Source: Gracilariopsis chorda (taxonomy: Eukaryota; Rhodophyta; Florideophyceae; Gracilariales; Gracilariaceae). Taken from it: a stretch of DNA of 64,000 nucleotides. The translations under genes were made by a program, and so were the position numbers. Shown in pieces: positions 10,224 to 44,555 of the stretch. The notes beneath the pieces were generated by a model. It worked only from the letters and a program-made list of their open reading frames with translations. It did not search any database and had not been told where the DNA came from. The DNA lies in NCBI GenBank assembly GCA_003194525.1, contig NBIV01000035.1:124001-188000 (forward strand), given 5' to 3'. Position 1 is the stretch's first letter. Every line of letters starts with the position of its first letter.

Positions 10224-10235
10224 CGAGCGGGACCA

Positions 10236-11609: not shown

Positions 11610-11647
11610 ATACTGGCACGATTTTCCAAAGTTGGCAACTAAGACCT

Positions 11648-12646: not shown

Positions 12647-12782
12647 TTGGCTACCTCATAGGCTATTTAACGAACCCGAGCCTGAACTTCCGGGGGGTAA
12701 AGCTTCGTACTGAGCGACGATGGTCGACCTTTCCCGTGCAGGGAGAGTACATTGCGTAGAGAGAGGCCTAAGGGCATAGCAA

Positions 12783-14502: not shown

Positions 14503-14756
14503 CGATGATCGGGAACGTCCGAATTGACGGACCGGGACCTCGATGACTGAGGATTGGGCGGCATGCTGCAGATAGCCAACCGATACTCGGGACGACAGTA
14601 TAACCTCACCAAATTTCCGAACTGCGGGGAAAGAAAAGAGAATCGACTTCGATCGAACCCAAGCGACTGGGTAACCAAAAGAGACGTTTCTCGAAAACGA
14701 GACAAAGTACTTGCAATACCAACACTCATCAGAGTAAGATTTGATCTTAATCTCTT

Positions 14757-15494: not shown

Positions 15495-15690
15495 ATCACC
15501 TGGTAGGTGTCCAGCGTACCCGGTATACCACTTGTACCCAGGTCGGACATCCAAATCACCAGTGATGGTTACCATTACTTCCGGTTCCAAAACAACCCAA
15601 AATGGGGTGTGCCTCGTAGCCATATCCACGTCACCTTGCGAGGTACCATAGTGTACCTGAAAGAAGCGATCCCCGAAATCACGGATTCCA
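15495..15690 (+). other. Junction segment between the two head-to-head gypsy elements
   Basis: This segment lies between the LTR of element 1 and the recognisable gag of element 2. A plus-strand frame at 15507-15728 reads as a plausible soluble peptide (SDIQITSDGYHYFRFQNN) that I do not recognise. It may be a relic of the 5' part of element 2 or a third sequence trapped at the junction. Confidence 0.3.
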
Positions 15691-18414: not shown

Positions 18415-19728
18415 TTGCTATTGATAACTGACAGGTTCTCGAAGCTGGTAAGAACAGTACCGCTTAACCGAATTACTGCCAAAGCGGTGGCGCAAGCCTC
18501 TGTGACCTACTGGGTATTCGTCTACGGACCGCCGGTGCAGTTACTATGCGACAACGGATCCCAATTTGCATCAAAGTTCTTTCAACACCTCTGTCGCATC
18601 CTAGATATCCGGAATCTGTTTGTAACTACGTATCACCCTCAGGGGAATGGCCAGGTAGAGAGGTTTAACCACACAATGCTCAATGAATTGAGATCTTACG
18701 TTGCGGATCACCTAAAGGAATGGGACCTGTACACGGACGCCATTACATATGCGTATACCACCCAGGTACATCTGGTAGCAACTTTGTCTCCATTTGAGTT
18801 GGTGTTGTCAAGGATACCGCCATCGGTTGCAATTAAAGCTAAGCCAACCCTGCCTAATTACCCTTCACCGGGGTTATATCGTAATTCCTAGAAGGCCTGT
18901 CTAACCAGAATGGTTCCGTTAGCCCAAATGGCTATGGAGAAAGCTCAACTCGCTTCCAAGCGGAATGTTGACAGCAAGGTCCGCCGACCCCTACCCCGAC
19001 TGCAGGCGAACGACTGGGTGGCACTCCGAAAGGAGTATCATAACCCTGAAAATGAACGCCGTCATAAGCTATCTCCGATCGCGGAAGGACCCTACCGTGT
19101 GGTATCTTTCTCCACGGAAACAATGGTACTGGATAGAAACACCCGCCACGAGTGGATCTCAAGTGATCGCGTCGCTTGAGTGCCAAAACCAAACCTGAAG
19201 GTCGTCACATAACCTACAACCCTTCCAGGGGAACCTACACCGGCTGAACCGCACGGTGCAGAAAACACTGAGTTACGCCCCGTGATTATGCCGCACCCAG
19301 ATCGGGGACTAACCCATCTATCGGAATTTTTGGATACTAAGGACACTGAATCTAAATTCTCAAAGGCTCAGCCAACTGGCTCTAACAGAGTTACTCCCCC
19401 ACCCGAGGTTTTACGAACCCCCAAGGCTCCGCCTAAGGAGGGGGAGGAGAACGGAAATACCACTTTGGTTACTCTGGCGTCGCCCGGTCTACCCACTTAT
19501 GAAACTCCTACTCAAAACCGTTGGACGGCTTCTTTCGATACCCCGTGCAGGGCTCTCAACGCTCTCGCAGCCCAGGTTGACGATGCCGTCAGCAATGAAG
19601 ATAGTAACCCTATTAAAGAAGACACTGTCGGGGCTGTCGGGCCCGATTCCAGTAATGCTTCCGAGGCACTTGATACTCGCATCGGAGTTCGCAATACCGT
19701 AAAAAAAGTCGGTCTCGGCCAATCCTGA
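18415..19728 (+). pseudogene. Integrase core, C-terminal domain and tail, gypsy element 2
   Basis: The frame begins at LLITDRFSKLVRTVPLNR, part-way through the integrase core. It keeps LLCDNGSQFASK (second catalytic D) and HPQGNGQVERFNHT (catalytic E); the first catalytic D is lost with the deletion. The C-terminal module is at 18910-19179 (NERRHKLSPIAEGPYRVVSF), after a stop at 18889-18891. A P/S/T/E-rich tail runs from 19282 to 19728 and corresponds to the tail of element 1. Phase is the same as gag and chromodomain, consistent with one ancestral gag-pol frame. Confidence 0.82.
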
Positions 19729-21090: not shown

Positions 21091-22655
21091 TCAGTGACAC
21101 CCGGAGGAATCGGGATTCCCGCTCGTAGGAGAGCTTTTGCGAACGCTCGCTGCTTGCGGTGTTAACCCGTTACCTTGCGTAGTCCCCATATTCCACCATT
21201 TGGAGACTGCAAGGCCGGAACCGGAAGCACCAGCATTACCCGAAGCCGTGGGAACCGTCCCCGTGTTAAGCATCCCGCCGAGGGGATTGGCTTCCCTATC
21301 CAGGTTTGGACCGTCCAAGTCAATTGGGGGCTCGTATTCGTAGTCCTTTGCATAGACAAACCCTGTGGGGTGAACAATCTGCACCGTGCGCGGGACATCC
21401 TTCAAGGTAAAGGGCATGAGCTTGAGTGAAAAGAGCACCCTCATATGGATCGTACCACATCCAGTTGCCGGAATGCGGATCACTGCGCCACGGAGACCGG
21501 TCATATCCGGAAACGGAATCGCCTCTCTCGGGATGGCTCGCCACGGGCACCTGATCCCACCGCACTCTGTCGATGACGGTCAGGATCAAATTCAAATCAG
21601 CCACATTCGCTTCGGAGCCCCACGCTGGGTATAGATCGAGACGCCGTATGGTGGTCCTCAACAGAGGTGGGATATACCATATCCTGAAATGGTCATAAGT
21701 GTCCCACTGGAGATTTTCCGCAACGTGGGCTCCCCACTTGGCTGCCACAGGGCACCAGTAACCGGAGTGATTATCCTCGACGGGGCGCGACCCCACGTAG
21801 TAGACGCAACTGGCAGGCTCGGCAGAACCCCCACGGGGGACTTCAACTTTACTGAAATGGTCATAAGTGTTCCACTGGAGATGTGCCGCAACGTGGGCTC
21901 CCCGTTCGGCTGCCACAGGGCACCAGTAACCAGAGTGATGATCCTCGATGAGGCGCGACCCCACGTAGTAGACGCAACGGGAAAGCTCGGCAGAACCCCA
22001 ACGGGGAGCTTCAACTTTACTCCACCAGGCGGGAAGGCGAAGATACCTATTAGGCCTCGCCGTATAACGCATTCGTTCAATCTCCACATGGGGGTAAGGA
22101 ACCAAGTACCCATGTCGGGATCTCGCTCGCCACTCGAAGTGCACCCTTCGGTCGAAGTGATACTGCGTGCTGGACCTCTGAAGGTATCGAAACTCTGCCC
22201 TTAGTATGATGACTCCACACGAGCATGTTTGGCTTGATCACGAGGTCTGGCCCATGGAACTACTGTTCAGGGAACCAGGCCAAGGCCGTTCCATAGGAGA
22301 ACTCTCCGTAGGTTCGGAAGTGCGATAAGTCGAACCCGTACGACGGGGTAACTAGACGCTCGTTGCGAGTCCTCTCCATGCGTTGGTAAGCGAGTTTCGG
22401 CATCCCGGCTTGGGCTTGATCCAAAGGTTCCCCGCCTCCGCGGTAGAGCATCTGAGTTTCGATGGCGATACCCGCCCGCCAAAAGGGTGACTGTACCATT
22501 TCGCGAGGACTCCAACCAGAGAGCACGCCATCCTCCACATAGGAGGCGATCAATTCGTCGTCGTCCATTGACGTCGGATGAAACCACGGGCACGGCAGTA
22601 GATACCAGGACCCAACAGAGGATTCCACCTTCGAAGGGACTCGTTCGATATCCAA
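21091..22655 (-). pseudogene. Antisense ORF region between pol and 3' LTR of gypsy element 2
   Basis: Minus-strand frames 22655-22260, 22144-21320 and 21504-21091 run opposite to the host element. The middle one is the longest (274 residues) and contains two tandem 56-residue units. Each has CVYYVGSR, then HSGYWCPVAA, GAHVA and LQW.TYDHF. A third, weakly similar stretch follows (LYPAWGSEANVADLNLIL). The first frame has SWYLLPCPWFHPTSMDDDE. I recognise no family. Antisense ORFs between pol and the 3' LTR are known in some plant gypsy lineages (Tat/Grande type); relation to those is not shown. Alternatively these frames are pieces of another minus-strand element inserted here. Confidence 0.45.
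21686..22021. repeat. Tandem duplication, two 168-bp units
   Basis: Unit 1 starts at 21686 and unit 2 at 21854, both with gaaatggtcataagtgt followed by ccactggagat and ending with cttcaactttact. The period of 168 bp is exactly 56 codons, so the duplication keeps the frame of the minus-strand ORF at 22144-21320. The units differ at scattered sites, so the duplication is not very recent. Confidence 0.85.
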
Positions 22656-26269: not shown

Positions 26270-28750
26270 CTAGACTTCAACACTTAAACACTCCTCCTCG
26301 AGTTCCTGTCCAAGACCAAGCCGTTTGAGAATTGCATTAACACTCATACGTCCCAATGGCTTGGTGAGTAAAACGGCATCATTCAGCTCACTTGGGACGT
26401 ATTGAACACTAATCACATTGTCTCTTATGAGATCTCGGATAAAGTGAACGTTTACATCAATGTGTTTAGCACTACTAGAAGGACACCTTTCACCACCAGC
26501 CCACTCCAATGCGTACTAGTTGTCAGAGTGTAGAGGAATCAAAGGTTTCATATGGAAGCCGCATTCCCGTAGCACACGAGCAACCCATACCACTTCCTGT
26601 GCAGCCAAAGTCAGAGCATAGTACTCCGCCTCGCCAGTTGATAGCGCAACTGACGCTTGTTTTCTACCACCTTACCAGCAGGTTGCTGACCCAAGTTTAA
26701 CGATATACCCGGACATCGACTTCCGACTCGTAGTATCTCCAGCGTAGTCAAAGTCCACAAAACCATGCAGATCTAGCGATCCAGGCCTGTAGCATAGCCC
26801 ATGCTGTCGCGTTCCACACAGGTACCTGAGCACACGCTTCACAGCTTTGTGACACCAAGCGATAGGAGCAATTTGAAAACGAGCCCGGATGAGAGCTGGA
26901 GCAAGTATATCCACCCTAGTACGTAGTGCCAAGTACAGCAGAGACCCGATCATCTGCTGGTACAGCTGCACATCCATTGGTGATTTGTCCTCCTCCATTG
27001 CTAGAGATGCGAAGAAGCACTCCACCATAGAGCTACGTACTGGCTTAGCGTTCTGGAGACCAAATCGTCGAAGTATACTTTCAATATACAGCGACTGTCC
27101 CAGCTTGACACCAAGGAGTTGTCCGGCTGTACCTATCTTCCATGACAGCTCCACGCCAAGGTGCAGAGTGATTCGGTTCTCAATGCGGAGGTCATAGAGT
27201 GTTTTGAGCTCCTCCAACACCGTAGTCCGTTGCTCCAGCGTTGGCGTGAACACCAGAATGTCGTCCACGTATACTAGTAAGTAGGCATACATGCCATCTC
27301 CAACCTTTCGCTTGAATACGCACGGTGCGCTGGGTAGTTCCTCAAAACCCAACCTCTTCATGTCTGCTTTGAACTTGGTGTGCCATGCTAGATGAGCCTG
27401 TTTCAAACCGTACATAGCCTTGAGTAACTTATAGTACTTTGTGGTCAGACCAGGAACACCACGCGGCGACATCACCCACACGTATTCTTTAAGCTCACCG
27501 TTGAGAAATGCAATCTTAACATCTACTTGAGCCACATACATCTGAAGACAAAGTGCGACGTACAGGAATATGCGGACCAGGCTAAATGGCAATACTGGCG
27601 CATATGTCTCCATGTAGTTCTGCCCGTATGTTTGGTGGTTGCCACCAGCCACAACCCTAGCCTTGAATCTATCAACCGATCCTTTGGCATCGCGCTTTAC
27701 GTTTAAAATGACATGAGTAGGAAGAGGCTGAGAGGCAGGTGATTCATCCTCCTCCCAAGTGTTCTTCTCCTCCAGAGATGTCAGTTCTTCATCAATGGCA
27801 TTCTTCCAAAGGCTCTGCTCAAGTGGTGTGGCAGACAGTGCTTCGCCCAGAGTAGGTTCATCACTGGTAGTAATATCCATTTGTGACGTTGCAATACCGG
27901 CCATGTACCACCACTTAGCTGGCGCACGTCGTGTACGGCGAGGATAGCGTGGTTCTGGTTCAGATTCCGGTAAGACATCAGTGTCCGAAGTATGTTGACT
28001 AGCACTTAGGGCAGGCTCACCACCATTGTCTGGGTCCGAATCGTCATCAGAAGTATGCTCGCTATCATCTGGATGATCGGTACCGCTTTCAATGCACTGT
28101 GCCGTTGGTATAGGAGTGGATTCAATATGTTCCGTATCACTCTCAATGTCGAATGGATTGTCCACAGAAACCATACTACCACTCTCAGTATCGATTTTAG
28201 AGTGATCTGTGCATTCATAAGTATCATCTGATGCACCTTCATCACTCATAACTTGTTCCAGAAATGGTGCTCCAGGGAACTTGGACTCGTCAAATGTCAC
28301 ATGCCGAGACTTTACAATGCGTGGAATCTCATCACTATCATTGACTAAAACATCATACACACCATGCTCAAGAGTCTGCAAGTACATTCCCTCAAGTGCA
28401 CGAGACTCGAACTTGGTATCCGGTTTCATCTTAAGCACGAACGCAGCACACCCAAACACTTTGACATGCTTCAGGGATGGTTTTGAACCAGTCATCAAAA
28501 GGTAAGGGCTGCTTCCAGTTGCTGAGTGACAAACCCTATTGCGAACATGTATGACGAGCTTTAATGCGTATGGCCACAAGCACTCTGGGAGACTTGCCTG
28601 TATGAGCAAAGCTCGAGCAGCTTCCTCCATAGTGCGATTGATGCGCTCGGCTATTGCATTGTGTTCCGGAGTATACGGAGGAGAGAAAGAAATGTCTTGA
28701 AGATTGTTAGCAGGGTTCAGCTGCAACACAATATACTCTTGGGCATTATC
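26270..28750 (-). pseudogene. Copia B integrase C-terminal half, reverse transcriptase and RNase H
   Basis: This continues the upstream frame after the stop. TPEHNAIAERINRT supplies the integrase catalytic E. An acidic linker with several DSD-type clusters follows, then the RVT_2 reverse transcriptase (DRFKARVVAGG, VDVKIAFLNGELKEYVWV, and YVDDILVF as the catalytic motif). RNase H has GFVDFDYAGDTTSRKSMSGY. Stops at 26672-26674 and about 26510-26512 cut RNase H; the remaining part carries STGEAEYYAL and runs to the natural end at 26270. Apart from these stops the RT region of 685 codons is uninterrupted, so the element is not very old. Confidence 0.88.
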
Positions 28751-30408
28751 CTAGTGCACTTTCGCAATGGCCACTCCTCCAAGCTGCTGGAACTTGTGCT
28801 CAACTGCATCGAATACAACAGCAATTTCACTTTTATGGGTCATGAAGCCTAAGAGTGCATACCTTGAATGCTCGTCAAGGAAGGTAGAGGCATATTGAAA
28901 CCTTTGTGGGAATGAAGGTACAAGGGGTCCTAGTATATCGGAGTGTACCACCTCACCTACGGCTGATGCTCGGTGGTATTTGTCAGGGAATGGAAGTTTA
29001 TGCGCCTTACCAAGCATACATGGGCGGCATATCTCCTCCATTTCCGACATCTTCGGCACCCCTTCAGCATGTTTGTAAACTGACTGGAGGTCGCGCGCAT
29101 TGATGTGGGCAAGTCGCCGATGCCATAGATTAGCAATACTGGACTCCGATGTCTTCATGAAATGATCTCCACTAGTTGGTGACGAGGATGGGGTTGGGTT
29201 GGTACCTTGCAATATCGGATCGGGTAGGGTGTACAACCCCCAGCGTCGATCGCGATGGCCACTGCCGACTACAAACCCATTGTCCAAGGTGAGACGAACC
29301 TCACTTGAGCGAAAGAAGGATTCAATGCTCTTGTCCGCCAAGCATCCTACGGACACCAAATTGTATTCCAGTTCTGGAACGAACAGGACATCAGTCAATC
29401 GTAGGTTTGCGTACTCAAATGGCAATACTATGTCACCCCGCTGCGTTGCACATACTTCAGTGTTGTCGGCAAGCATGATGGTTCGAGTTTCTACGTTGTG
29501 CAAAGACTTGGGAATAAACGCAGACACCGAATGGAAAAAGTGTGATGTAGCACCACTATCGGCATAGGTGTCCATATCGCAACTGTCGGGAGGTACGATG
29601 GAAGACTTTTCCAGGGCCATACTACATACCTCAATCTTTGATGAACTACCAGCCGGCTTATTGCAAGACTTGGACGCCCCAGATTTTCTCTTCGATTTGA
29701 TGTTAAGCTTGTCCAGGATGCTTTTGGGTAAGTGATTATCTGGGTTATCGGGATTCACCTGGCATCTGTCCTTTGTGTGACCATCACGATCACAGAATTC
29801 ACAGTGATAAGTCCGGTTACTGGACAACACGTATGCTCTACCAGCTGTACTTGGCCGATCATCAGAGTCACTTCCGTCCCTGATGTGAGCGTGACTAGAG
29901 TTTTGGGACACACGTGAAGCACCAGAACCTTTGCTTCTGTTCTTCTTTCGACTTCGCGTACGTCCAGAACTAGAAGAACTGACCAGACGAGCATTGTACT
30001 CATCGATCAAAGTGGTTGCCACATAGTCCCAAGTGAGTTCCGATATGTCCTTGGTACGTAGTGCAGCAGCCGTGGACTCCAACGAACTGGTCGGATCAAT
30101 GGAAGCAAGTAGCATAGGTGCCTTGTGAGACTCCGGTATAGCAGCATCCTTGCCCATACGGTCTAACTGAGCGAACAATGCCGTGTATTGATCCACATAG
30201 CTGGACATGTTCTCACCGCTGTACGACATTCGGAACAATCGTGTCTGCAATGCAATACTAGATACAGTCCTATTGGAGGCATAACGTTGATCCAAGAGTT
30301 GCAACATACATGCAGGATCATCATCCACGTCCATGACTACGCGTAATGGAGCATCACCAAGAGCACAGATGATGATACCACAAGCCTTCTCTCGTTTCGC
30401 AATGATAC
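28751..30408 (-). pseudogene. Copia B gag, protease and integrase N-terminal half
   Basis: Reading starts mid-gag (EKACGIIICALGDAPLRVV). It runs through a CCHC knuckle (CEFCDRDGHTKDRC) and the aspartic protease (DTYADSGATSHFFHS). Next comes the GAG-pre-integrase zinc domain (LWHRRLAHI...CRPCMLGKAHKL), then the integrase core with its first catalytic D (VVHSDILGPL). The first ATG in the remaining frame is at 30334. The frame ends at TAG 28751-28753, one codon before the second catalytic D (DNAQEY). Copia proteins normally have a sense residue here, so this is a simple nonsense mutation. Confidence 0.87.
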
Positions 30409-30428
30409 GGGGAGTTGCTATTTGGCAG
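30409..30428 (+). repeat. Proposed left terminal inverted repeat of copy 2
   Basis: GGGAGTTGCTATTTGGCA here pairs with the inverted right end, GGGATGCTAGTTTGGCA, with three single- or two-base gaps. The position coincides with the break point of the copia gag. The true end could lie up to 12 bases further left. Confidence 0.4.
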
Positions 30429-33305
30429 GAGTGTTGGACGTAAGAGACCGTGAAGAAGACAGGCGTGTAAGGGACTTTTGGAAGGTTTATTGTAAACGGG
30501 AAGGGCTTAAAGGAATACCCCGTAACGTGTTGCTATCTGTCTTTTGCAAGTCCCGTGTTCTGGGAGCAACCAATAAATCTTCCGCTTTCCACACGGATCC
30601 TTGCACCGACTTTGAGATGGTCATTGGGTTGTCTATGGTGCAACAGATTGCCGTGGATAAGAAAGGAAGTGGTAGGAAGAGGAAAAGAGGCATGGCAGCT
30701 AAGAAGTTCTCAAAAGTGAGTTTGTCGGACATGACCCAGAGTCAGAGAGTCGGGAATGGTGTGCAGCTGGTGACCAGGGCTTGGGATTGTTTCGCCCAAT
30801 TCCTCGGGTTTCCCAACGTTGAGTTTATGATCTTGCCTTACATTCGACTCGACTATATCAGTGTAATCTTCACCGATATCGCACAACGCTCCATGGGCTT
30901 CCAACACAAAGATTGTTCCAAACAGTTTGTGGAGGAGAAAAACGTCGCCACCGTAGAAGAAAACTTTACGAAATGGGCATGGAATTTGCCGGACCCAGTG
31001 GATACAGCGCTTCGCCTTTGTGCCAAAAAATACCTTGGTGACTTTTCTAATGTGGTGGTACAAGAGAAACTGTTCGACATCTCTGCTCCCAGCAAATTGG
31101 ATGCCCTCAAAAGTTTCATCATCACGAGAACAAGACTTTCCCTCTGCAGTTTGAGAACTATAGTGAATCTCTTGTCACTATTGTTCAAGAGGCCATATAA
31201 AGCCTCTGAAGCTCATTGCATTGCATGGAAGCAATGTCAAAGTACATCAAGCTGTGAAACCAGAGCCCGCAGAAGACGTTGACATCATTATGGAGCCGGT
31301 AAAAACTAGTACGGCTGGTGATGGGAACGAACGTGCTGAGCGTGTGGAAGGTGGTGATCACGGTGAGTTGGAAGAGGTGGAAGAGATAGAGATGGTAGAG
31401 GATGTGGAACCTGGTACTGCACCAAAGGCAACTGAGGAACTGCAGACAACAGCTTTGTCGCAGAACTTATCGTATGATGTCGAAGGCACGGGGATTCGTG
31501 CACCACCGTACCCTACGACTTTGGATGATGTGATAGCTTACAAGTATTGTGAGAAGGAGATGTCCCGCAACTTCCGTCTCCACAACTGCCAGTTCGACAA
31601 TCTCATCGAAGTTGACGGCAACAAGTCTGGCGAAAGCGATGTATCTATTGAAGGAATGGTACAGTTCCTGCTTTCCGATCCGCAATATGGGACTCGTTCT
31701 GAGCGTCGTTTGGAGAACAGCGAACACGATATTCTGACAGAGAAGGGCATGAGCAGGTCGGCGAGGAGGTCGTCAAAGCTTCTACGTCCTGGTGGACATA
31801 TTATACAGTTCTGCTCATGGGATGAGGTACCGTTGTGGCGGGATGTGCCATGGAACGTTACCTACATGGATGACTCTGATACGATGCGTTACTCCTTTTT
31901 CGTCGACGAACAGCCCCTCCATTTCGTACGGTCTTTAGGTAATACGACGGGTAACGTAGGGAGAAGAAGTTGCCGGTTGCACCAGACGACAGAATACGCT
32001 GTACATGCTGTTCGTTCTGGAGTTCCTTATGCACAACAGCACCAGATGGTCAACTATGAGAACTTCTATTATGTTGCTTCACGATACCCAGCGTATCATG
32101 CAATCATGGATCAGGTGCCACCGATGTCAAATAGTGAGATGCTCATGTGGTCTGTGAAAAACCCGGATGGGAAGTATACGAGGAAGAGCGTGCGACCGGA
32201 ACAGAAGAGTAGGGCACTGTTGAAAAAGCTGATTTGCAGCTTCAGTCAGCCAGGAGACCTCGTGGTCGACATGTTTGCCGGAACGTTCTCGACAGCGATG
32301 GCGTGCATGGAACTGCCCAAGCATCGGAAGTATTTGGGGTGTGAACCGGACAAAGCTTGCTTTGAACACGCCAGGCATGGCGCTATTGTTCGCTTCGCTT
32401 CCATAATACGGGAAGGATACACTGATATTGAGAAGAGCCAGGAGCTTCGAAAGATGGCCCATTGTATTTCCTCTGCATTCCAAATGGGAAGAAGCAGGCA
32501 CACCGTGTTATGGAGGGCTGTCGACGGATTTCCACCGTACCAACTTCTTCCCCCACACCTTGTCGACTTTCTCTCCACTTTGTGGCAAATTGAAATTCTA
32601 GGGAAGTTGGGAAGGAAGAAAGCTATGGATGGATGGCCGAAGGAGGTGCAGGGAAGAATGAATCTGGAGAACATGAAGTCTCTATTGGCAATGGAGGCTG
32701 TGCAATATGGGTTGTGAGTGGGCAAGTCTACTATTCGTCAAGAAAAGGCTGGTGTTGGATAGTTTACAACTCGTTGAATTGCTGCAGGCGAGGTAGTGTG
32801 CTATTTCTACGGGACGTTGGTTTATCATGGCCTTTAGAATCGGAAAGAAGTGCACAATACCTACGGGGAGGGAGTCATGGGTGTGACAAAAGATCGCTTC
32901 CGGAAGTATGCGGTGGAGATAGAAGTCTACGGTCAACAGTTCCGATCACTTCCTCATCGAAAACAGCTGACGAATTGGCATGGAAAACAAGCAAACCCCA
33001 TTTTATGGCTGGTTCCTGCCCCTTTTTGTATTGCGGGGTATATCAACGATTCAAAGTACGTGGAAGGAGATAAACAGTTAGATGCCATGGTGGATGGCCT
33101 CCTGAAAAAAAGGGAGGCTAATGTGCGAATGAAACGGACACCGGGAGTGGGACGAACACCACGGGGAATAACGGACTACAAACTTATGAAGATGGAGGCG
33201 ACAGCCAACATAGAGCAAAGAGAGGTACTCTTCGCCAGATACGGTGATGTTTATGACTGGCAAACCCATTTGAATGTGGAGGATGGAATGATAGTCATTG
33301 ATTAG
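30422..33305 (+). pseudogene. Fused DNA amino-methyltransferase and SET-domain protein, copy 2 (broken, active-site change)
   Basis: Three parts. An N-terminal region (30422-about 31115) of ~230 residues that I do not recognise includes a KKGSGRKRKRG basic patch. An acidic linker follows (31221-31450). The methyltransferase (31521-32420) has LRPGGHIIQFCSW and the FAGT loop near 32274, but its motif IV reads DPQY at 31677-31688 instead of DPPY. The SET domain is at about 32690-33305. Frame changes at 31115-31200 separate N-terminal region and methyltransferase; small indels or an unrecognised intron could explain them. From 31221 to 33305 the phase is constant, broken only by stops at 32715, 32760, 32775 and 32835, all sense codons in copy 1. 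The SET C-terminus, frameshifted in copy 1, is in phase here. Methyltransferase activity is unlikely with DPQY. Confidence 0.8.
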
Positions 33306-33602
33306 TTTGTTGTTCTAAACCTTTGTCCACAGCTTGGCTAAAGGGCGAAGCTTATTATTTGAACGGATGTGTAGTCCTAACTTAGGAGAACATCACTTTT
33401 CGGTAAGGATAGAAGATAAAAAGCGATATAGATGTGACACAGAAACGTCCATTTTCGGTACCACGGGGGATTGTATTCTCAAGATTTCACTAAAAACAAA
33501 GATTTTTGTGCGCATTGGGTGGCGAGAGTTTCCCGGACAACACACGGCGTGCGCCATCCCAGAGTGTCACTAGCCACTTGCGCAAGAGGTTTGACTCCAA
33601 GA
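33306..33602 (+). other. Spacer between plus-strand genes of copy 2
   Basis: It is collinear with 1839-2134 of copy 1 and differs from it at few positions. It has no ATG-started frame of note and probably combines a 3' untranslated region with the second gene's promoter. Confidence 0.5.
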
Positions 33603-35628
33603 ATGGCGCCAAAGGGAAAGAAGCGAGGCCTGGCAAGGGGTGGTGCGGCGAGTGCGCCTAAGACGCGGCAAAAGGCTATTGAGGAGCGAACCGCGAGTGA
33701 AAGCAAAGTGAAATCATGTGTTCCCAGGAGCGGATTATCGGGGAGGAGGTCAGGAGAAGGTGCTTCGAAAAGGGGGGGAAAAGGTGGGGCAAAGAACGTC
33801 GGATCCGAGCGCACGACGAGTGAGAATTTGAAGGCTGATGCCCATGCGCATGTAGCAGGCGGGAGAGATTCGGTTCGGGGACAGCGATCTATGCCTGGGT
33901 CAGGTGGTAGAGTGGAGGGTAAAAAAGGGTTGGTTGTTCTGAGAACGGAAGAGGTAACAGATGAGGGAGGGTTGAAAGGAAATGCGCCGGTCGAAGACCA
34001 AATAAGGATGAAGATATGCCCGGAAGTAAACAAATATAAAACGCAGGTGCGTTGAAGAGTGGTGGGGCCCCAAGTGGAAACCGAGATATAGGAGAGGTAA
34101 ATGTCTCTTTGGTACACAGTGATGGGGACGAAGAGGATCATATTGTGAAGGAGAGATAGACGAGAGATATGATAAACGAAGGAGTGGGACGTCGCTCTAA
34201 TTTAAAGGAAACGCAAGAAGTGGAAGAAGTGTCAGAGCGACAGATGGGATACAGGAAGCATCGAAAAGCGGAGACCGTACAAGCACACTCGTGCGGACGC
34301 GAAAGGTGGAAATGGCTGAAAACTTGGAAAGTGATAGAGGAAGCAGAACGCCGCAGACTCTGGAAGGCATGCGAGAGAGAAAATGAATTGTTCATCGGTC
34401 GCCAAGTGAACCTGCTGACGAGCAAAGCCTGCCTGTAAATATTCTGGGAGATGCAGGGAATGACGACATTGGTGTGATGTCTCGATCTTCGTTAGTTGAG
34501 AGGGTCAATATGTTGAAGGCAGAACTCCGGCAGATCAAAAGGGACCACTGCAGCCTAAATATGTCGCTGAAGCTGACGCAAGAGGAACTGAAGAGGATGA
34601 GAGAGGAGATGAGCGAGAAGAATGTATTGATAGATAGCTTACGGGAATGGATGAAGGTTGGGAGAGGGGAGAGAAAGGGATCTGAAGGTGAAAAGGAATT
34701 GCGAGGGCGTAGGAAGTATGTGGTTGATGTGCAAGAGGGTTTTTATGGGTTTGCCAGGGTAGTATATGATAGGTTGTTGTACTATGCGAAGATGGAGGTG
34801 TCGGAGCTTTGTTTTACTTCGGAGGGTGTGGAAAGGAACTGGACGAATCGATGCGAATTATTGGGGAAGGGAAGAGAGTGGAGTGTGTTTGTCGTCGGAG
34901 GAAAGGATATTATGCCTCGATGTCCGTTTGAGATCGCGTCTGAGATGAGGTCGTACACGCCTTCGTCGCGAGGAGGAAGTAATGACCTATTGAAGTACTT
35001 GGTTGGCGTTGAGATTGAGGGGGAGAGATGGCAGTCGATTAGTGATGCGGGTAGGAAGGATCAATGCGTGCGGGAGGTTGTTGCAGACAGGTGTCTGAGG
35101 CAACGTATGAAGCAGAATTTGAGTGATGTGATTGGGATTCGGAAGCGTGCGGCACCGGAAAAAATGCTTTCGTTGCTTGGATATGACTTGATCGCCAGAC
35201 GCGTTAGACCGCGAGAGGGGACGGGGCTAGACATTGAGTTGAAGAAGCAGTTAGAGGAAGCAAAGTGGAAGTTCAAGGGGGATGGGGAGGCGAAGAGCAG
35301 TCGTTTATGTTCTTGGAGGATGAGAACAATCGAGGATATTACGTTTTCTGGAGTTCAGGTTGCTGGTCGGCTGAGGGAGTTTAGTGAAGAGGACATGTAC
35401 TTCAAGAACGGGGCTCCGGTGGAAGTATTGGAAGAATTCATGGGATATGAGATGGGGACGGAAAGGGAGGGAAAGATGGAGTACGTGGAAGGGACAGTGA
35501 TGCATTTGGCTCGTTTGTATGCGTGGATCGGATTGGTTTTGACAGCAATGGACACAGATATGGGGCGTGGAGGAAGACGGCAGTTGTTATTTTCTAGTTT
35601 TACGGGGAGTATCTTCGGCTTGCAGTGA
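33603..35628 (+). pseudogene. Second element protein, copy 2 (basic, coiled-coil; broken)
   Basis: ATG 33603 (MAPKGKKRGLARGG) opens an uninterrupted basic region to 34055, where a frameshift occurs. The long frame 34474-35628 (384 residues) then covers the charged helical segment (LTQEELKRMREEMSEKN), the conserved region and the junction that is a stop in copy 1. It ends at a frameshift near 35600, so the C-terminal ~130 residues seen in copy 1 are lost. A shared in-frame TGA (2919-2921 in copy 1, equivalent near 34385) is present in both copies. Either the gene decayed before the two copies separated or it is two genes. No known domain is visible. Confidence 0.6.
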
Positions 35629-35970
35629 AGAAAATACTTGGAGTGGCGTGGGAGAGGGTTAGAGAACTACATCATGAGGATTGGAGAATGAAGGTTGCAA
35701 TGACGGTGACCCGCAATTTTTAGCTAGGAATGGGAGTAGAGAAGCGAAGGTAGCGCTGTGGATACCTTCGAAACGGAAGGTTGCGGAGATGGCGCGCTGA
35801 ATGAGGGCCATTACTGTTTTGCGTTAGATGTTGGAGGACGAATGTGGGATGGAGTATCCGTTGCCGGGGGAAGATGGGGGGGAGAAGAAAGTTGAAAGGT
35901 ATCCGAGTAGGGTGAGGTTTTGGGAGACACACTTTCGGTGAAATTGTTCGGAGAGCTTGAGAAGGGTGAT
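35629..35970. other. Replacement segment at the deletion in copy 2
   Basis: From about 35640 to 35775 this is worn sequence equivalent to copy 1 up to about 4318. From about 35775 to 35990 it is unrelated to copy 1, and similarity resumes at copy 1 position about 6025. The filler reads as a plausible peptide on the minus strand, so it may be a variant form of the transposase gene rather than random filler. Confidence 0.5.
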
Positions 35971-36918
35971 TTAAAGGGGGTAGGGGGTGATGGAAGAGCC
36001 TTTGAGTGAGGTTACAGACGTATCGGAGTATAACTGGACGAGACCGACGAAAGATTCCATACCGGTTGTTTCGGGTGTGTGCCAGACTATGTCATTGATG
36101 TGGCACTGCATGATGGGTTGTTTGAAGCCAGGAACGACTTTGTTTCCAAAGGCGGCGGCCATAGGATGGGCGAAGGCGGGGGTGGAAGAGGAGGAAGGGG
36201 AAGATTGGGAGACGGGTGGGAAGAAGGAGTTGTTGAAGTGTGCGAGAGCGAGTTGTTGCTTCAGGACGTCTGTGGCGGGTTTTTGGAAGAGAGTTGCGGA
36301 AAAAGAGTTGTGCTCGTCGGAGATTGTGAGAGGGAGAAAACTGGTGGAGTTGATACGTCCCTTGACGAGGTGTTCTTGGAGTGCGAGGCACTGCTTTGCG
36401 GAGGAGATGGATTTCTGGAAGGATGACTTGGAGAAGTCTGGGTGGTTGAGAAGGGAGATGAGTTTGTCGGCTTGGCGTGTGCTGAAGGAGGAAGCGATGG
36501 AGGAGATGCAGAGGACGAGTTGCTCGAAATAGGGGTTGTTGAGGAGAGGGGAGGGGGAGTGGGACGAGGTGTGGGGAGGTGGGTTTGAAGAGGAGACTGA
36601 ACAGAGGGCGTGACTTGCCATGTGGTGTGCGTCTTGTGTTTGGAGGGAAAGGGAGGCCTGTTGGATGTGATAGGGTTCATCTTCGGCGAGGGGGACGTTG
36701 TCGGAGGGGCGGTTTGAGGGAGTGGGAGGAGGAATGGTGGAGAGGTTTGGAACGGATTTTCGTCGCTTGGTCCTCGGAGGGAACTGGACGGGAGCGTTAG
36801 CGGAGGAGGAAGGGCGTTTGTCGGGGGTGAGGCGATGAGGGCACCTGCGTTGGTGACTCTGGAGAGAGAACGTGGTGCGGCCATAGAATGTGCAACGGGG
36901 ATGGCAACAGGGTATCAT
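35971..36918 (-). pseudogene. Transposase-like protein, copy 2 (C-terminus missing)
   Basis: ATG 36918-36916 starts at the same C2HC finger as in copy 1 (MIPCCHPRC...HQRRC). The frame is open through the point where copy 1 has a TAG and ends at 35971. The segment equivalent to copy 1 4561-6025, including the CACTA/Plavaka-like part, is deleted. The N-terminal half is thus better preserved here and the C-terminal half in copy 1. Without its C-terminus this copy would depend on another copy for movement. Confidence 0.5.
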
Positions 36919-37444
36919 GGCGGGGGAAGGAGAACGGAGAACGGGATGCTTGGAAAGAGAGAAGGGTGGGTGGTGGCGGAGTGGGATATCGGGGAGCGTA
37001 ATATTATGGCGCACGTAGATGAGGTGGTGCACGTGATGCAGAGCGTCTTTTCGTAGGGCGTGGGGTAGAGCATGCGATGCAGGGAGCAGGTCGGGCAACG
37101 GGTGATAGAAAGCCAAAGCTATTTGGTTATGTAAACGCTATGTATCTATTCTATCTATTTTATCTATTTTATTTTACTATTTGAAGGGGCACTCGCTCAG
37201 GACCAGTAAGATTTGGATTCCACGTGCACCTGAGAGGGTAGGTATTTGTGGAGTCTGGCGCTAGTTTTACCTCCAAAGAAACTGGGAAATGTCTAGTATA
37301 CTGCTAGTCTTTTGTCCCAAGCAAACTAGCTCTGTGCTATGTATGGAATTGTTTTGAGAAATTTGATTCATTTAAAATTGGGTTTGAAGAGTCGTTATTC
37401 GTTCATTTTAATTCTTTGCCTTTTGAATGCCAAACTAGCATCCC
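36919..37444. other. Right subterminal region and right inverted repeat of copy 2
   Basis: It is collinear with 6959-7488, with a degenerate TCTAT/TTTTAT run at about 37142-37180 upstream of the minus-strand gene. The last 17 bases (37428-37444) form the proposed right inverted repeat. Confidence 0.5.
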
Positions 37445-37501
37445 AAAAACATCGATGATTCAGTACATAACACTTCGGTTTCTGTAGAGAGAAAACCAGG
37501 C

Positions 37502-39034
37502 ATGCTTTGTAAAACAGTAAGACGTCCAGCAAGAAAAAATGCAATCCATTCAGCTGTCATCATCCCAGTTGTCTCAATTGGGACGTATTTTTCTGCCCGA
37601 TTACCCCGTCAAATCAGCAGCATACTGAAAAAACTAGCGAATGGACGTACAGGTGATCTTAGTGCGCAGAGGACCGTTTCCGTGCTTCATTACACTCAAT
37701 ATGAACATCTGGCGAGAGGAAAGCCAGCTGCTTGGTACGGACACCAGCAATAGTAGTGCATTAACAGCAAAGTCTAACCGCCCTCGCCCGTTTGAGTAAC
37801 CGGATCTAATTGCAATGGTGGACAACCAGTATGCAAACGACTTCATGCCACACTTCGAAAAAAAATCGCACCACATATTTTGGAATGAATAGATTGGGGC
37901 TTGCATCAAAACAAGAGTATCAAAGCGGGAGTTTCAAGAACCCAATATGATTCATCACTAAATCCTCTTGTGGCACAAAAAAGCACTAACTGTAGACATT
38001 AGTGTGATCGAGGAGTTGATTCGAGCATAAGCACCCCTTTCCGGTCAAAGAGACATGTTGCGTGGCCTTATTCGGTCCAGACACAAGCATCGCTATTCTT
38101 TACTCTTTCTACTGCCACAATTGCACTGGCCAGTGAACGTTTAGATACGGCAGCACCCCGATTGTGCCGGATACGTACATTAAAGGAGGCACTACTCGCA
38201 TGGTCTACCACAGAAAAAGGCAGAAGTCCTCATGATTGTGCCCTACAACCCAACTCTGACCAAGAATTACCGCTCCCGTAGAAACATAGAACGCACGCAA
38301 GTACGGGGCGCAGTTGCCTATCTGAGGAAGTACGCATTTAAGCAGCTCAAAGCACAAAAAGCGGTGCTGAATTTGACTGGTGCTCATGAGGTAGGCAGGT
38401 GGAACGAGCAGCAATAAAGGAAAAGATGCAGATTAAAAATCGTGCATACATTCGTACGCGTTTGTTGCATGCCACCAACGCTGCTTGGATACTTCTTGAG
38501 GTTAACAATGCGCACATTGGCAATAAATTCGAGCGACTGCGCATTCACTTGGAAGGAAATCGAACGATTCTGCTGACAGTTGTAAGCCAGCTTCTTTTCG
38601 CATCGCAGCCGTCTACGCTGGAGAGATACTTTCCAGCGCTCGAAGCATATGCAAACCTCTACTACCTCTCTTATAATTTCAAAAGTTGCGTCTGTATCGC
38701 ATGCACCCTGACCACTTGCTGGACCAACACGACGAAGCAGACTCAGGTGCCCGTAGACGTCTGATCTCAGCCCATTTCCGTGGTAGAGCGCACGGAGAAC
38801 GCGCTGTGGGTCGAGAGAATCAGAGTTGTGTCACTGCCTGTCATTGAGCTCTTTGCTTTTTGGTTGCTTCTCATTACCCAGGGCTCAAGCTCTTATGAAG
38901 TTGGAAGGGCCATCAACGGACAGCAGTATGAAACGTATCGTAAGTTGGCGATCGCAAGCAAATTGCTCGCTGACGGAAGTGAGTTTGATATTGCCATTCA
39001 AGAAGCAATTCAGATCTACACCATGCACTCATAG
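37502..39034 (+). pseudogene. Helitron Rep region and linker, plus copy
   Basis: SVLHYTQYEHLARGKPAAWY (in 37502-37753) matches SIHYSHYEYLVRGHPVPCD of the minus copy. Around 37795-37960, translated fragments with LIAMVDNQYANDFM and KREFQEPNMIHH correspond to LIAMVYNLYAYDFM and KLEFQERNVPYHH, the HUH-type catalytic region. IVPYNPTLTKNYRSRRNIER near 38230 is the 'VPYNP.L...Y..H.NVE' Helitron signature. 38399-38764 and 38780-39034 carry STLERYF, LLLITQGSSSYEV and other linker motifs. The histidine pair is altered and the frame is broken, so no nuclease function remains. Confidence 0.7.
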
Positions 39035-39471
39035 CCACGACATTTGGTTGTTACACTGTACCAGCAAGGTGTAGACCAAGAGAAAATGGACGTGAAGAAC
39101 TGGAGAGCGCTTTGTAGTGATATAAATACAGGCGATGAGCATCAAATAGAGTATTAAATGTATCTACGTGTGATGGACAGCTCATACAGGCACGTTGTAT
39201 GACTGATTTGCTAGCACAGAATCTTCTCGCAACACCTACAGCTGGAAGCAGCAAGGACTGATACGATTCGAGGTACAACAACTCGAGACGCGTACAAGGG
39301 GCAAAATGCTGCAACGTTGCAGTCAGGATAAGCGACGTTAAAAACTCGCCAAAGAAAAGTCATTGGCAAAATCAATGCTGCATTGCACAAACGAAAATCG
39401 CTGCAAGAGCCAACGAGCATCCCAGAAAATATGTTCCTTTTTCAAGATCAGCAGGCACTGGGACGACATAC

Positions 39472-40936
39472 GTGCTCAACGTCATTCGTGATACAACTGT
39501 TTCAGAAGGAATGCTCCCCAAAATGACTGCTACAACACGCATTGCAGGATCGTTTTACGAAGGTGGGTGCACTCTACATAGCCTGCTTGGAATCGGTGTG
39601 GTAGATAGCGAAAAAAGAAACACTACAGCTACTTTGTCCATATATGGTTCACGATGTCAATGGCCGGACCTGCTTCGTAAAATACAACTAATTGTCGTGA
39701 TTGGGGCGTCCATGCGTTCTTGAAAGCCTTCTGAGGTCATTAATGCGTTGCTCAAAGATCTGCGGTGCAGTGGAACGGAAAGCCAGCCTCCTTGTGGAAG
39801 CTTGATGATCGTTCTATCCGGCGACTACTGACAACTGCTTCCAGTTGTGCTGCAGGTATACATGGACGTTGAGCCAAGTAAAAATGTGAGAAGAGTATAC
39901 AAAAATTTTTTAACGAGTTGCCATGGAAGAATGATCTGTGGACATTGTGCTCGGTTCAAATGCTGTATCTCACTGAACAGTACGCGAAGCGGATGGTATG
40001 GCATTTTTGTTCTTCTTACGTTGTTTTGCACGCACTATCATGTCCAAAGAACAACGAACACCACTCAGATCTACCGCCTGGATACAGAACGATGACTAGT
40101 TTTTCTAAACATGGTTCACAAAACGACGTAGAGATGATGTAAATCCCAGCAAAATGCTCATTGCTTCCACTAACCAGTTGGTCGACAAACATAGTGCAGC
40201 AGCGCTGGATCTGTTTCCAGGTGAACGCTTCACTATCCCGCAAGCGACGACAGTACAACGTAGTTATAGACAGAACCCAAAGTCCGACATCGCCATTACT
40301 ATCGCTCCCGAGCTTGCATTTCAGAATGAGCCTACTAGAGTACCACTTCAGAACCTGGAATTGAAGATTTATGTGGCCGTTAAGGTCATTTGGAAGGTTC
40401 TTAACTCCCATGCAGTCAATGAAAATATGTTTACGGTCATGCTTGTCGATCAGTACACCATGCAAGTGGCTTAGTTCGACTAGAACGGGCAGATACTAGA
40501 GCGAGAGCTTCTGCAACGTATCGACTTCGAGTTCTCTTTCCAATACATGTGCATTATTCGAAGAAATTATCCCATTCATCTGGCGTTTGCAGTAGCTGGT
40601 CACAAAAGATAAGGAAAAACGTCAAATTGCTCGGTTTTAGATGTGAAATTCAACTTCTGCGCCGTTCTGTTGTACGGGGCACTGTCGCACATTCGAAGAA
40701 ATGATCATTTGTTGCTTCATCATGACCCACAACGTAGATCCGAAAATTCGCTTACAATTCATCCCATGTCCGTGGACCTCAGAGATCTAGTGCTTTCTGT
40801 GTACCTTCAGTTCTGCATCCCGAATACCCGTAATCCTATTTCATGCGTTCTACATTTGTTGACTTCAACTACATTTATTTGTGCTATTGCTTTCTGTGCC
40901 CTTTCTATTCTATCAACAGCTTTTTACCGCTTCTGA
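39472..40936 (+). pseudogene. Helitron PIF1-type helicase, plus copy
   Basis: 39472-39723 matches the start of the helicase in the minus copy (SEGMLPKMTATTRIAGSFYE against SEGMLAEMTATTGFAASFYK). 40154-40474 carries SKMLIASTNQLVDKH-like and VDQYTMQVA segments. 40643-40936 has LYGALSHIRRNDHLLLHHD, the equivalent of the GQLYVALSR motif VI region. Walker A lies in a broken stretch before 39472. Stops and frameshifts are frequent. Confidence 0.7.
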
Positions 40937-41180
40937 ACCACGTCGCACAGCGCCACCTGCTGCCAAATGCCACTTCTTCCTCTGCTGAAGTAAATCATTA
41001 TATCCCCAAAGGAGCAAGCAGGGTTCGGCCGCGGGCGGCGCTGCGCGCCGCGGTGGAGGGGTGATAAAAAGCGGTTGGACGAAAAAAAAGGGGTGGAGAA
41101 AGCAAAAGAAGAAAAGCAAGTAGTTTAAATCAATGAATGAAGAGCGCAAAAAATATGATTACGGTTGTGGAGGAATGCAG
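40780..41180. repeat. Inverted 3' ends of two Helitrons with GC-rich hairpin at the junction
   Basis: The plus strand from about 40800 to 40965 and the minus strand from about 41180 to 41035 are similar in sequence. Examples are ctatttcatgcgttctacat against atattttttgcgctcttcat, and caacagctttttaccgctt against caaccgctttttatcaccc. At the minus element's end lies CCGCGG...CGCGCCGCGG (about 41029-41053), a roughly 10-bp stem with one bulge. Helitrons end in a short GC-rich hairpin, so I read these as the two 3' ends facing each other across a 60-bp spacer. A clear CTRR terminus was not identified. Confidence 0.55.
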
Positions 41181-42616
41181 AACTGAATGGCTTCAGGTAG
41201 CACTGGCTTTGCGATGGCCACAGGCATGGGATGAATTGTCTGCGCATTCCTGGATGTAAGCTGCGGGTCATGCAGGAGCAGCACATATTCATTTCTTCAA
41301 AAGTGCGACAATGCCACGTACAACTGACCAGCGCAGAAGACGTTGGACCGCACATCCACAACCAAGCCATCCAAGGTCTTTCCATGTGCTTTGTGAACGG
41401 TTTCAGCAAACGCAAGGGAAATGGGAAACTGCTTTCGAATCATGCGAATGCCTGGGAGAAAACTCGAAGTTGATACGATGCAGGAGCTGGAATTCCAGCA
41501 CCTGTCAGTTCTCGTCGAATCGAGCCACCTGCATCGTAAACTGATCTACAGGCACGACCACAGATAGCTTTCCGGTGACCAATACAGGATGCAGCATGTT
41601 CCGAATGACCATAACTGGCACACCGATCTTCAAGTACAAGTTATGAGGCGGTACTCCAGTAGGCGCATACTGATATGCAATCTCAGGAGCGATAGCACTG
41701 ACCATGGCGGACTCTGGGTTCCGTCAACTATCAGGTTGTAGATTCTTCGCTGGTAGAAGAGTGAAGTGCCTACCAGGAACAGATCCAGCGTTGCCGCATT
41801 ATGTTCATCGATCAACTGATTTGTGGACGCAATGAGCATTTTGCTGAGATCCACATCCTCCTCGCATCGTTTTGTGAGCCACTTCCTCCGGATTTGGTAA
41901 GCGGTTTGCATGCTAACTGTAGATCTGAGTGCGAGCGGAGCGTTGTTGGATAGTGTGCTGTGTGCAATGGAATGTAACAGAAATGCAAATACCAGATCAT
42001 CGGCTCGGCGTACTTGTTCGGTGAGGTAGAGCACTTGAACGGAGCACAATTTCTATAAATCGCTCTTCCACGGCAACTCGTTGAGAATGTTTGTGTACAC
42101 TCGTCCTACATTTCTACTTAGCTCAACCTCCTTGTATACCTGCGAGGCAACTGGAAGCAGCTGGTAGTAGTCACCGGATAGAATGATCTTCAAGTCCCCA
42201 AACGGAGGTGGTTTGTCCATTCCACTGCAGCAAAGATCTTTAAGCAACGCATCCATGAGTTCAAACAGCTTTCTTGAGAGCATGGAGGTCTCATACATTA
42301 AGAGCAGTTGTATTCCGAGTAGCAGTTCCGCACGTTGTGATCGGGGACCGTACTTGGAAAAAGTGGATTCAGTGCGCCTTGTACTGTCCGTATCCGCTAC
42401 ACCCAGTCCGAGCAGGTTATGTAAATTGCAGCCACCTTTGTAAAACGAAGCTGCGAAGCCTGTTGTAGCAGTCATTTCGGCGAGCATTCCTTCCGACTCA
42501 GTGATATCACGAAAGAGGTTGATCAAGTATGTCTTCCCGGTTTCTGAGGATCCTTGCACAAAGTAAACCTTTCCAGGAGTTCTTATGCGCCCCTGCAGCG
42601 CCTGGAGTTGTTGCAA
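41125..42616 (-). pseudogene. Helitron PIF1-type helicase, minus copy
   Basis: Frame 42616-42053 has Walker A as GSSETGKTYLINLF, the Walker B position as LLLMYETSML (families have IDE.SM, so the aspartate is replaced) and motif III as ILSGDYYQLLPVAS. Frame 42049-41630 carries SKMLIASTNQLIDEH. After a shift, 41705-41125 carries VPVDQFTMQVA, then AETVHKAHGKTLDGLVVDV and GQLYVALSHFRR, the family's motifs V and VI. In Helitrons this helicase unwinds DNA during rolling-circle-type transposition. The altered Walker B and the broken frame indicate loss of function. Confidence 0.82.
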
Positions 42617-42685
42617 GGCGGCACTGACGGTGTCAATGATTTGTATTTGGCGAGTTTTTAAGGTGGCGTACCTTGACTGAAACGG

Positions 42686-44555
42686 TCACGTATTTTGCAC
42701 CACTCGCATGTCACGAGTTGTTTTAGCTCGACTCGCCTCAGTCAATGCTGCATCATCCTGCTGTTGGTTATGTGAGAAGAAGCTGTGATCGTGTAGTAGT
42801 CGTCCATCTTGCCGGTCTGAGATCTCCACCTCACTTCGATACATTTCTTGCTTTCGTTGCTGCTCATCTCCTGTATGGTTGTTGCTACATAGCGCGTCCC
42901 GGTTTTCGACGGCCATTTTCTCTGGATCTGCGCCTTGCTGGTATATTGTGACAACCAGACGTCGTAGCTCAGAGGGTTTGCTGTAGATCTCCACTGCTTC
43001 TTGAAACGTAATATCTAAACTCGGATCCGTCAGCGAGCAGGCCGCTTGCAATCGCCGTTTCACGATAAGTTCCATACTACAGTTCGTTGAAAGTCCTTAA
43101 GTGTTCATAAGAGCTCGAGCCGTGATTCATGAGCAGCAACCGCAGAGCAAAGATCTCAATGTTGGACGGCGAAACACCTCTGATCCTTGCGACGCACTGC
43201 TGGTCTTCTGTGCACTCTACCAAGTACATGTGCGGATCAAAGTCATTTGTGGGAACCTGAGTGCCATCTCCGTTGTATTGGTTAAGCGCACGGGCAGGAA
43301 GCGTGCGATACAATCGCAGATATTCAAAGTACGAAAGGTAGTCGAGGTTCGCATATGCTTTGGGCCTTGCAAAGTATCTCTCCAATGTAAACGGGGGCGA
43401 TGCAAAATGGATTTGATTTGGACCTCTCATAAGAAACGTTCGCTCTCCTTCCAATTGAATGGCCAGCCAATATAATTCTGTATGATGTGAACATGTCGAA
43501 ACTCGAAAATTCTCTAAGCTGGGTTGACGGCGCCCACCACAAGTACTGGTATGTATGCACGAATGTCGTCCTGAGCTTGCGGCTCTTGGTGCTGCTCGTT
43601 CTGTGTGCCTGTCTCATTAGCGTCACTCACATTGCACCACCTCCTGAGCTTTGGGGTGCTTAAACGTATATTTCATCAGATAAGCCACTGCGCTCCCCCT
43701 TGCGTGTGTTCTACGTTGATATGAGAGCGGTACTCCTTGGTCAGGGTTGGGTTTTACGGCACAGTCTTGAGTTCATGGTGCCTTCTTCTGCAGTAGACCA
43801 CACGACTCGTACTTTATTCAATGTAGGTCTCCGGCACAATCATGTTGCTGTCGTATCCAAACTTGCACCGCCCAGCGCGATTTCGGCAATAGTGGGAGTG
43901 GCGGTGCCTGTGCATGGAACGAATAATGCCGCGCAACGCGTCGTCTTCTTTTGGAAGGGAGAGTTTTGCACGAATCAGATCTTCGATCACATCAACGTTT
44001 TAAATCACACCTCCTTCGAGCCACCCGAGCATGTGGTGATAAGGCACATTGCGCTCTTGAAACTCGAGCTTAGATGCAAGCCCCAGGCACTTCATTCGAA
44101 ATATGTGCTCCGAGTTTTTCTCCACGTCCTTCATGAAGTCATATGCGTACAGGTTGTACACCATTGCAATCAGATCCAGTCGATCAAACGGTTGAGTGCG
44201 GTTAATCTGTGCCGTGAATGCGCTACGAGTGCCGGTGTCCATCGCAAGGCACTGGATGTCCTCTCACCAGATATTCATAGTGACTGTAATGAATAGAGAA
44301 GGCGGTCCTCTCCGCGTCACAATCGCCTTTGCATCCATGCCCTTGATCTTCCAGTACAATGCTGAGCACCAAGTCAACGGGCAGGAAGATCCGTCCCATT
44401 TGCCCGAGCTGGGGTGGTGGCAGGTGACCGGTTTGCTGTTGTGCTTGCTGGATCTCTTGCCCTCGTAAATGGCGTGCCCGTTGTTCTCTATCCAGGAAAC
44501 GCATTCGCATGTCCTCAATGTTTTTGTGGGTGCAAAGAATCCACATCTGCATCAA
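42686..44555 (-). pseudogene. Helitron Rep and Rep-helicase linker, minus copy
   Basis: Rep: GRIFLPVDLVLSIV near 44400 and GPPSLFITVTMNIW (around 44270-44310) are followed by RTQPFDRLDLIAMVYNLYAY and LEFQERNVPYHHMLGWL (44242-44000). The last is the 'EFQ.RG.PH.H' HUH motif in a changed form (PYHH). A 'VPYNPTLTKEYRSH' segment lies near 43760. Linker: FTLERYF and AYANLDYLSYFEY (43454-43077), VSPSNIEIFALRLLL and SSSYEHLRTFNEL, continuing in 43075-42686. Phase changes separate the parts. The catalytic tyrosines could not be assigned. Confidence 0.75.

Follow-up and report, generated by a model that had tools for sequence, protein, structure and literature searches.

A Plavaka-type DNA transposon of the red alga Gracilariopsis chorda with a gene joining amino-methyltransferase and SET domains

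The element described here is a Plavaka-type DNA transposon of G. chorda, represented by at least two well-sampled lineages, and it carries a gene (MTase–SET) in which a β-class amino-methyltransferase domain is followed by a SET domain. It is very nearly certain that a single open frame, preserved by selection, encodes both domains. As an overall explanation, we consider it probable that a Plavaka-type family carries a fused writer of DNA and lysine methylation that serves the element. Transposons with one epigenetic enzyme are already known; DNA and histone methylation joined on one transposon were not found in the literature searched, which did not extend to Repbase or most subscription papers, and neither was a published MTase–SET transposon, in agreement with the initial annotation of this DNA, which knew of none. 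With the gene, one can test whether amino-methylation of DNA and marks on histones are deposited jointly. Its product is a natural protein that might make the two marks at once, and a candidate DNA-methylating enzyme for a seaweed whose genome gave no C5-methyltransferase match.

The window, a stretch of 64 kb comprising positions 124001–188000 of contig C35 of the 91.3-Mb G. chorda assembly, contains the element as two direct copies, both decayed, as seen by self-comparison. The copies share 94.6% identity between 1–4314 and 31467–35777, and 95.4% between 6014–7498 and 35974–37458. In blastn and tblastn comparisons with the intact element and protein, the decayed MTase–SET gene of copy 2 occupies 30423–33302 on the forward strand and corresponds to approximately residues 109–1060 of the intact 1060-residue protein, with homology in one phase at 31197–33302 (residues 367–1060) and the upstream part of the gene beginning at 30423. 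Its N6_N4_Mtase domain, at 31662–32372 on the forward strand (Pfam PF01555, 7e-15, residues 148–384 of the ORF at 31221), is the only such match among eight window ORFs scanned. No SET match was obtained in these eight ORFs, because the SET half is too broken; in copy 2 this half is placed at 32718–33302 on the forward strand by same-phase translation and by tblastn to residue 1060, SET being recognized by Pfam only in open copies elsewhere. The gene of copy 1 (1–1835, forward strand) covers residues 449–1060 by tblastn, its start lying outside the window.

The initial annotation had read a single phase through both domains in both copies. This reading holds for copy 2 over residues 367–1060, whereas copy 1 follows it only over 1–1644 (residues 449–994), after which the phase shifts and residues 993–1060 are found at 1638–1835. 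The accompanying remark that stops fall at differing sites is upheld by codon comparison with the intact protein, which places them at reference residues 463, 766 and 837 in copy 1 and at 865, 880, 885 and 905 in copy 2. The motif succession given there, DPPY and then FAGT, requires amendment: copy 1 retains DPPY, but copy 2 has DPQY at motif IV, with FAGT as motif I.

Downstream of the MTase–SET gene, both copies retain a decayed second ORF on the forward strand, at 2136–4460 in copy 1 and 33603–35782 in copy 2 (tblastn), corresponding to a 775-residue protein with no known domain (open protein P0004, without a Pfam match). On the reverse strand, a remnant of the Plavaka transposase gene, convergent to the MTase–SET gene, lies at 4570–6958 in copy 1 (tblastn with the C53 transposase; family PF18759 assigned from an open copy in L017), and one comprising only the N-terminal 381 residues lies at 35785–36918 in copy 2 (tblastn). 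Decayed right terminal inverted repeats, recognized by eye from the end of homology and the terminal sequence, are located at 7475–7497 and 37435–37457, both on the reverse strand. The left break of copy 2 is adjoined by Copia-type retrotransposon ORFs outside the element (26672–30334, reverse strand; Pfam RVT_2 3.9e-39, Pol_BBD and gag_pre-integrs). No element sequence was found to the left of these ORFs down to 7498, and the remaining left side of copy 2 was not found in the window.

The full element, as represented by the copy on contig C53, is 11,851 bp long and is bounded by 23-bp terminal inverted repeats beginning CGTCGGTGTT, with 22 of the 23 terminal bases agreeing between the two ends (termini CGTCGGTGTT..AACACCGACG). 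It comprises a 276-residue frame at 445–1272 (reverse strand), the 1060-residue MTase–SET gene at 2171–5365 (forward strand), a 775-residue frame counted from the first Met at 5491–7953 (forward strand), and the transposase frame at 8024–11503 (reverse strand), which is convergent to the MTase–SET gene. Target duplications of 2 bp were seen by eye in all 13 insertions with both ends (C53, C144, L014, L016 and nine further pairs), and the terminal repeat pattern occurs at 239 sites with at most two mismatches, compared with one site for a reversed-pattern control. The 775-residue protein has no match in Pfam, NCBIfam or PHROGs; the PDB gave nothing beyond weak resemblances to coiled coils (best E 0.21). 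A palindromic stretch, possibly a regulatory region, lies upstream of the MTase–SET gene in both lineages (1562–1881 of the C53 element and 3330–3487 of L021, a reversed locus). The GC skew is approximately +0.4 over the half with the 775-residue frame and the transposase, and negative at the left end (C53 element and window 34000–38000).

The Plavaka family (PF18759) is matched at 9.8e-22 by the open L017 frame inside the mapped ends, and also at C53:86543–87235, within an open frame of 1160 residues. HPCPRC and HLLDH were seen by eye in the transposase translation and may correspond to the C(2)C and H(3–4)H motifs expected between the catalytic D and E of Plavaka transposases. Because the ends are CGTCGGTGTT..AACACCGACG, and not TGT..ACA as in PlavakaA or CATCA..TGATG as in PlavakaB (termini as described in PMC12730594), the element is assigned by its termini to a Plavaka-like lineage that is neither of these. 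The earlier identification of a mobile element is borne out; the Plavaka class, the ends and the host had not been recognized in the initial annotation. A DIRS element or other retroelement was rejected: no reverse transcriptase domain was found in the element frames scanned, and inverted repeats and 2-bp duplications are present.

Among the copies fetched, all 1060 codons are open in four (L009, L010, C53 and L012), and L013, of the same group, has its frame broken by one stop. The claim that a β-class amino-methyltransferase and a SET domain occupy one uninterrupted gene is thus confirmed by open natural copies outside the window. Profile searches of the two halves find N6_N4_Mtase at residues 513–751 (Pfam, 1.2e-18) and then SET at residues 877–1039 (1.8e-4) in the 1060-residue ORF of L009, the latter slightly under the Pfam cut-off (22.3 bits against 22.4). 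In the L015 frame, SET reaches 23.8 bits, over the cut-off, as it also does in the proteins P0014, P0016 and P0018; P0008, like L009, falls slightly under. Positions 1–105 of PF00856 are covered in L009, P0008 and P0014 (Pfam), and a profile made from five SET pieces matches KMT2, KMT5A, EZH2 and EHMT2 chains, at best 1e-5. In the open protein, DPPY is at residue 519 and FAGT at residue 718, in the motif order IV then I.

Enzymes of the PF01555 family transfer methyl groups to N6 of adenine or N4 of cytosine; SET enzymes, which methylate lysines, usually carry an NHxxC-type motif and a catalytic Tyr. In four of the five aligned SET pieces, IND replaces the usual NH of the SET core, so that SET activity is not assured. 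Of the 14 copies listed, 13 retain the C-terminal Tyr and L004 has a stop; the Tyr is also preserved, as DYG or DYS, in P0014, P0016 and P0018. For the amino-methyltransferase half, DPPY is described as favouring adenine, as in bacterial N6A enzymes, and PF01555-type domains as having evolved 6mA or 4mC specificity repeatedly (PMC8885841).

Genome-wide match counts are lower bounds, only the best candidates having been scored. The G. chorda genome contains at least 89 matches to the window ORF, at least 114 to Plavaka, at least 150 to PF01555 and at least 85 to SET. For 72 of the 114 Plavaka matches listed (approximately 1% expected by chance), an MTase match lies within 12 kb in convergent orientation; one has a match in another orientation and 41 have none. 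Among the 150 MTase matches listed, the corresponding numbers for Plavaka are 71, two and 77. Some of the unpaired matches of either kind lie near contig ends or are decayed. The convergent pairing, in 72 of the 73 paired cases, indicates that the MTase–SET gene and the transposase travel together. Among the 85 SET matches listed, 59 sit 373–430 bp downstream of a same-strand MTase match, 51 of them in the same frame, showing, together with the single-frame copies, that the domains are not always separated in the genome. The other 26, which include the 13 strongest, have no MTase match. Contig C53 bears both a strong host-type SET gene and the element, which speaks against contamination.

The C53 copy is 99.3–99.8% identical over 6–9 kb to L009, L010, L012, L013 and L018, indicating recent spread within this lineage. 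Internally deleted derivatives of approximately 8 kb (L014, L016 and L017, on contigs C232, C64 and C144) have also spread; they have their ends and deletion joints in common, and keep the MTase domain without the N-terminal part and the end of SET.

Between the two lineages, dS is 0.84–1.40, placing silent sites near saturation. The dN/dS ratio is 0.14–0.17 for the N-terminal region (eight copies, W1 being without this region) and, with nine copies each, 0.15–0.18 for the MTase, 0.15–0.26 for the SET and 0.20–0.28 for the inter-domain stretch. Over the whole gene, it is 0.16–0.19 for MTase–SET and 0.21–0.25 for the 775-residue frame (six copies each), and it is 0.20–0.31 for the transposase (five copies, four of which cover at most 376 codons); all values are probably biased upward because the compared copies are decayed. 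Judged from these ratios, both halves of the MTase–SET gene are under purifying selection between the two lineages.

Two full-length protein searches, which scored the top 8000 and 7997 candidates with shared words, returned one protein, P0008 (1060 residues, from another assembly), which is 94% identical to the fusion protein over its full length; this limit on the candidates may be why there is a single match. A search with a 325-residue MTase piece returned 15 proteins, four of them from G. chorda. Among these four, P0023 (BWQ96_09986) agrees with locus L008 of contig C314 at all 324 residues; a fungal host, which Plavaka had at first suggested, was accordingly rejected. Divergent fusions are present in other assemblies at 34–36% identity. 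Of six proteins scanned, P0014, P0016 and P0018 are over both Pfam cut-offs; SET falls below its cut-off in P0008 and P0022, and likewise in P0023, a fragment that has only this domain. Compared with P0008, P0014, P0016 and P0018 show 36–45% identity in the C-terminal half of the MTase and 33–38% in SET, indicating that both parts diverged to a similar degree. P0014 has at least 78 matches in the G. chorda genome. Among them are more divergent families in which the similarity extends over both domains, in some cases within a single open frame; a member of one such family on C637 has an open frame of 1039 residues. A viral source was dropped, as no relative was found in viral contigs in weak searches with six peptide patterns or with one, and a prokaryotic relative of the fusion was dropped on an equally weak search of genome contigs with one pattern.

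The predicted P0014 model, on which the fold comparison rests, is matched by Foldseek to CcrM (1.3e-11), M1.HpyAVI, bdelloid N4CMT (8s9o, 6.1e-9), Suv4-20h2 (2.2e-6) and the MLL1 SET domain (4.9e-6), with loose superpositions (r.m.s.d. 6.0–28.7 among 50 rows listed). Structure prediction, proposed in the initial annotation as a check, relates this divergent fusion to bacterial N6-adenine methyltransferases and to SET enzymes. The AlphaFold models have a mean pLDDT of 56 for P0014, with the SET part mostly below 50, and of 47 for P0008, with most SET residues below 50.

The element shares with fungal Plavaka elements, which carry TET/JBP cargo and make target duplications of 2–3 bp (PMC12730594), the transposase family PF18759, 2-bp target duplications and an epigenetic enzyme as cargo. 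However, its host is a red alga, its termini are CGTCGG..CCGACG and its cargo is MTase–SET instead of TET. Plavaka is not confined to fungi, giant repeats of Amoebidium being described as flanked by Plavaka transposases (PMC11244446). As DNA transposons with a SET domain, the HarbingerS and MuDR transposons of Phytophthora are comparable (cited in PMC12730594), but they belong to other superfamilies, and no DNA methyltransferase is mentioned in the passage citing them. DIRS elements are likewise mobile elements with a DNA amino-methyltransferase, a Dam-like adenine enzyme (PMC5890265); they differ in being retrotransposons, and the term 'SET domain' is absent from that source. Bdelloid N4CMT, which joins PF01555 to a chromodomain and is described as marking transposons for silencing (PMC8885841), is also a eukaryotic PF01555 protein fused to a chromatin domain, and its solved fold is matched by the P0014 model. 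Unlike the G. chorda fusion, it is a host gene with an SPPY motif, and its chromodomain reads histones and does not write. The Marchantia 4mC enzyme and the early-fungal 6mA enzyme, described as host acquisitions (PMC12344493), are similar by that description as prokaryotic-type amino-methyltransferases in eukaryotic chromatin. The bacterial β-class enzymes CcrM and M1.HpyAVI match in the motif order IV then I, in fold and in sequence (16–21% identity in the fold comparison), but have neither SET nor a long N-terminal region.

Acting on or near the element, the protein would be a functional methyltransferase with two targets. One would be the amino group of a DNA base, with 6mA likelier than 4mC as the product, given DPPY and the nearest folds; the other, modified by the SET half, would be a lysine, either in a histone or in one of the proteins that the element encodes. 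The benefit may be that the element's own copies are kept permissive against small-RNA or chromatin silencing; TET in transposons of fungi has been proposed to act likewise. Escape from silencing through a chromatin state of the element's own making is, tentatively, the most likely purpose. How the gene would lead to a mark and the mark to a benefit, and that self-written chromatin would counter small-RNA-linked silencing, we infer from the domain families and from the methylation and small RNAs reported for G. chorda. Control of transposition could be the purpose just as well: methylation of bases within or close to the ends would confine the transposase to hemimethylated or unmethylated ends, which would couple it to replication or protect fresh insertions, and SET would methylate the transposase or nearby histones. 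Adenine methylation controls bacterial transposons such as Tn10, and methylation control is known for plant Spm; the convergent arrangement of nearly all Plavaka matches with an MTase match nearby (72 of 73 within 12 kb among those listed) also fits, but within the terminal 400 bp at each end of the one copy inspected no 9-mer recurs as often as three times, and no repeated site is evident. We regard this proposal as rather unlikely.

Self-restraint, in which a repressive DNA and histone mark on the element's own copies would limit host damage, as bdelloid N4CMT does for its host, is improbable. The match of the P0014 model to N4CMT (8s9o), described as marking transposons for silencing (PMC8885841), and the presence of Suv4-20h2 among the SET fold matches point towards it; however, a selfish element would gain little, and copies that are 99.3–99.8% identical attest to recent spread. 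The spread of the approximately 8-kb derivatives (L014, L016 and L017) without the N-terminal part and the SET end would suit a passenger gene carried without function for the element, yet the dN/dS of MTase–SET is not above that of the transposase in the copies compared, the fusion is kept in two lineages near silent-site saturation, and P0014 matches divergent families of the same genome across both domains, which leaves this explanation very improbable. It is scarcely credible that the fusion is only apparent, arising from adjacent genes, read-through of decayed copies or a SET look-alike. The Pfam score of SET is borderline in L009 and P0008, and stops interrupt the window copies both within the two halves and between them, but four copies are open over 1060 codons, P0008 comes from another assembly, divergent fusions exist, 51 of the 59 listed pairs are in one frame, and SET enzymes are matched both by profile and by fold.

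A broader and doubtful extension of the favoured account, in which the element writes its own chromatin state, is that a single transposon protein writes DNA amino-methyl and lysine marks together as a portable chromatin state, and that such elements would be a chief source of DNA methylation in this genome and might be responsible for the non-CG-biased methylation reported for G. chorda. According to a review, the alga has approximately 8% methylation with a preference for non-CG sites, and small RNAs occur at its methylated transposons (PMC8566409). In a range of eukaryotes, 6mA is described as accompanying H3K4me3, which of the two comes first being unsettled (PMC12695648). No match to a C5-methyltransferase (PF00145) was found in the G. 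chorda genome, where an intron-split gene could be missed; the control was positive in 10 of 14 genomes. Single-copy transitions among nine MTase–SET copies (W1, W2, L002, L004, L006, L008, L019, L020 and L021) occur preferentially at CpG, which accounts for 14 of the 35 C>T and 17 of the 47 G>A changes, and this bias in decayed copies is unexplained if C5-methylation is absent.

The window has further repeats. At 8679–19106, two retroelement copies with reverse transcriptase, RNase H and integrase domains stand head to head and form a palindrome of approximately 70%. Another long, imperfect palindrome (37458–44519, 70.6%) begins at the right end of element copy 2, and one of its arms contains a PIF1-like helicase fragment (42053–42616) that is perhaps, at a guess, Helitron-derived. 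Tandem repeats are present at 21684–22021, as a 168-bp duplication, and at 45844–46128, as 2.7 copies of a 103-bp unit.
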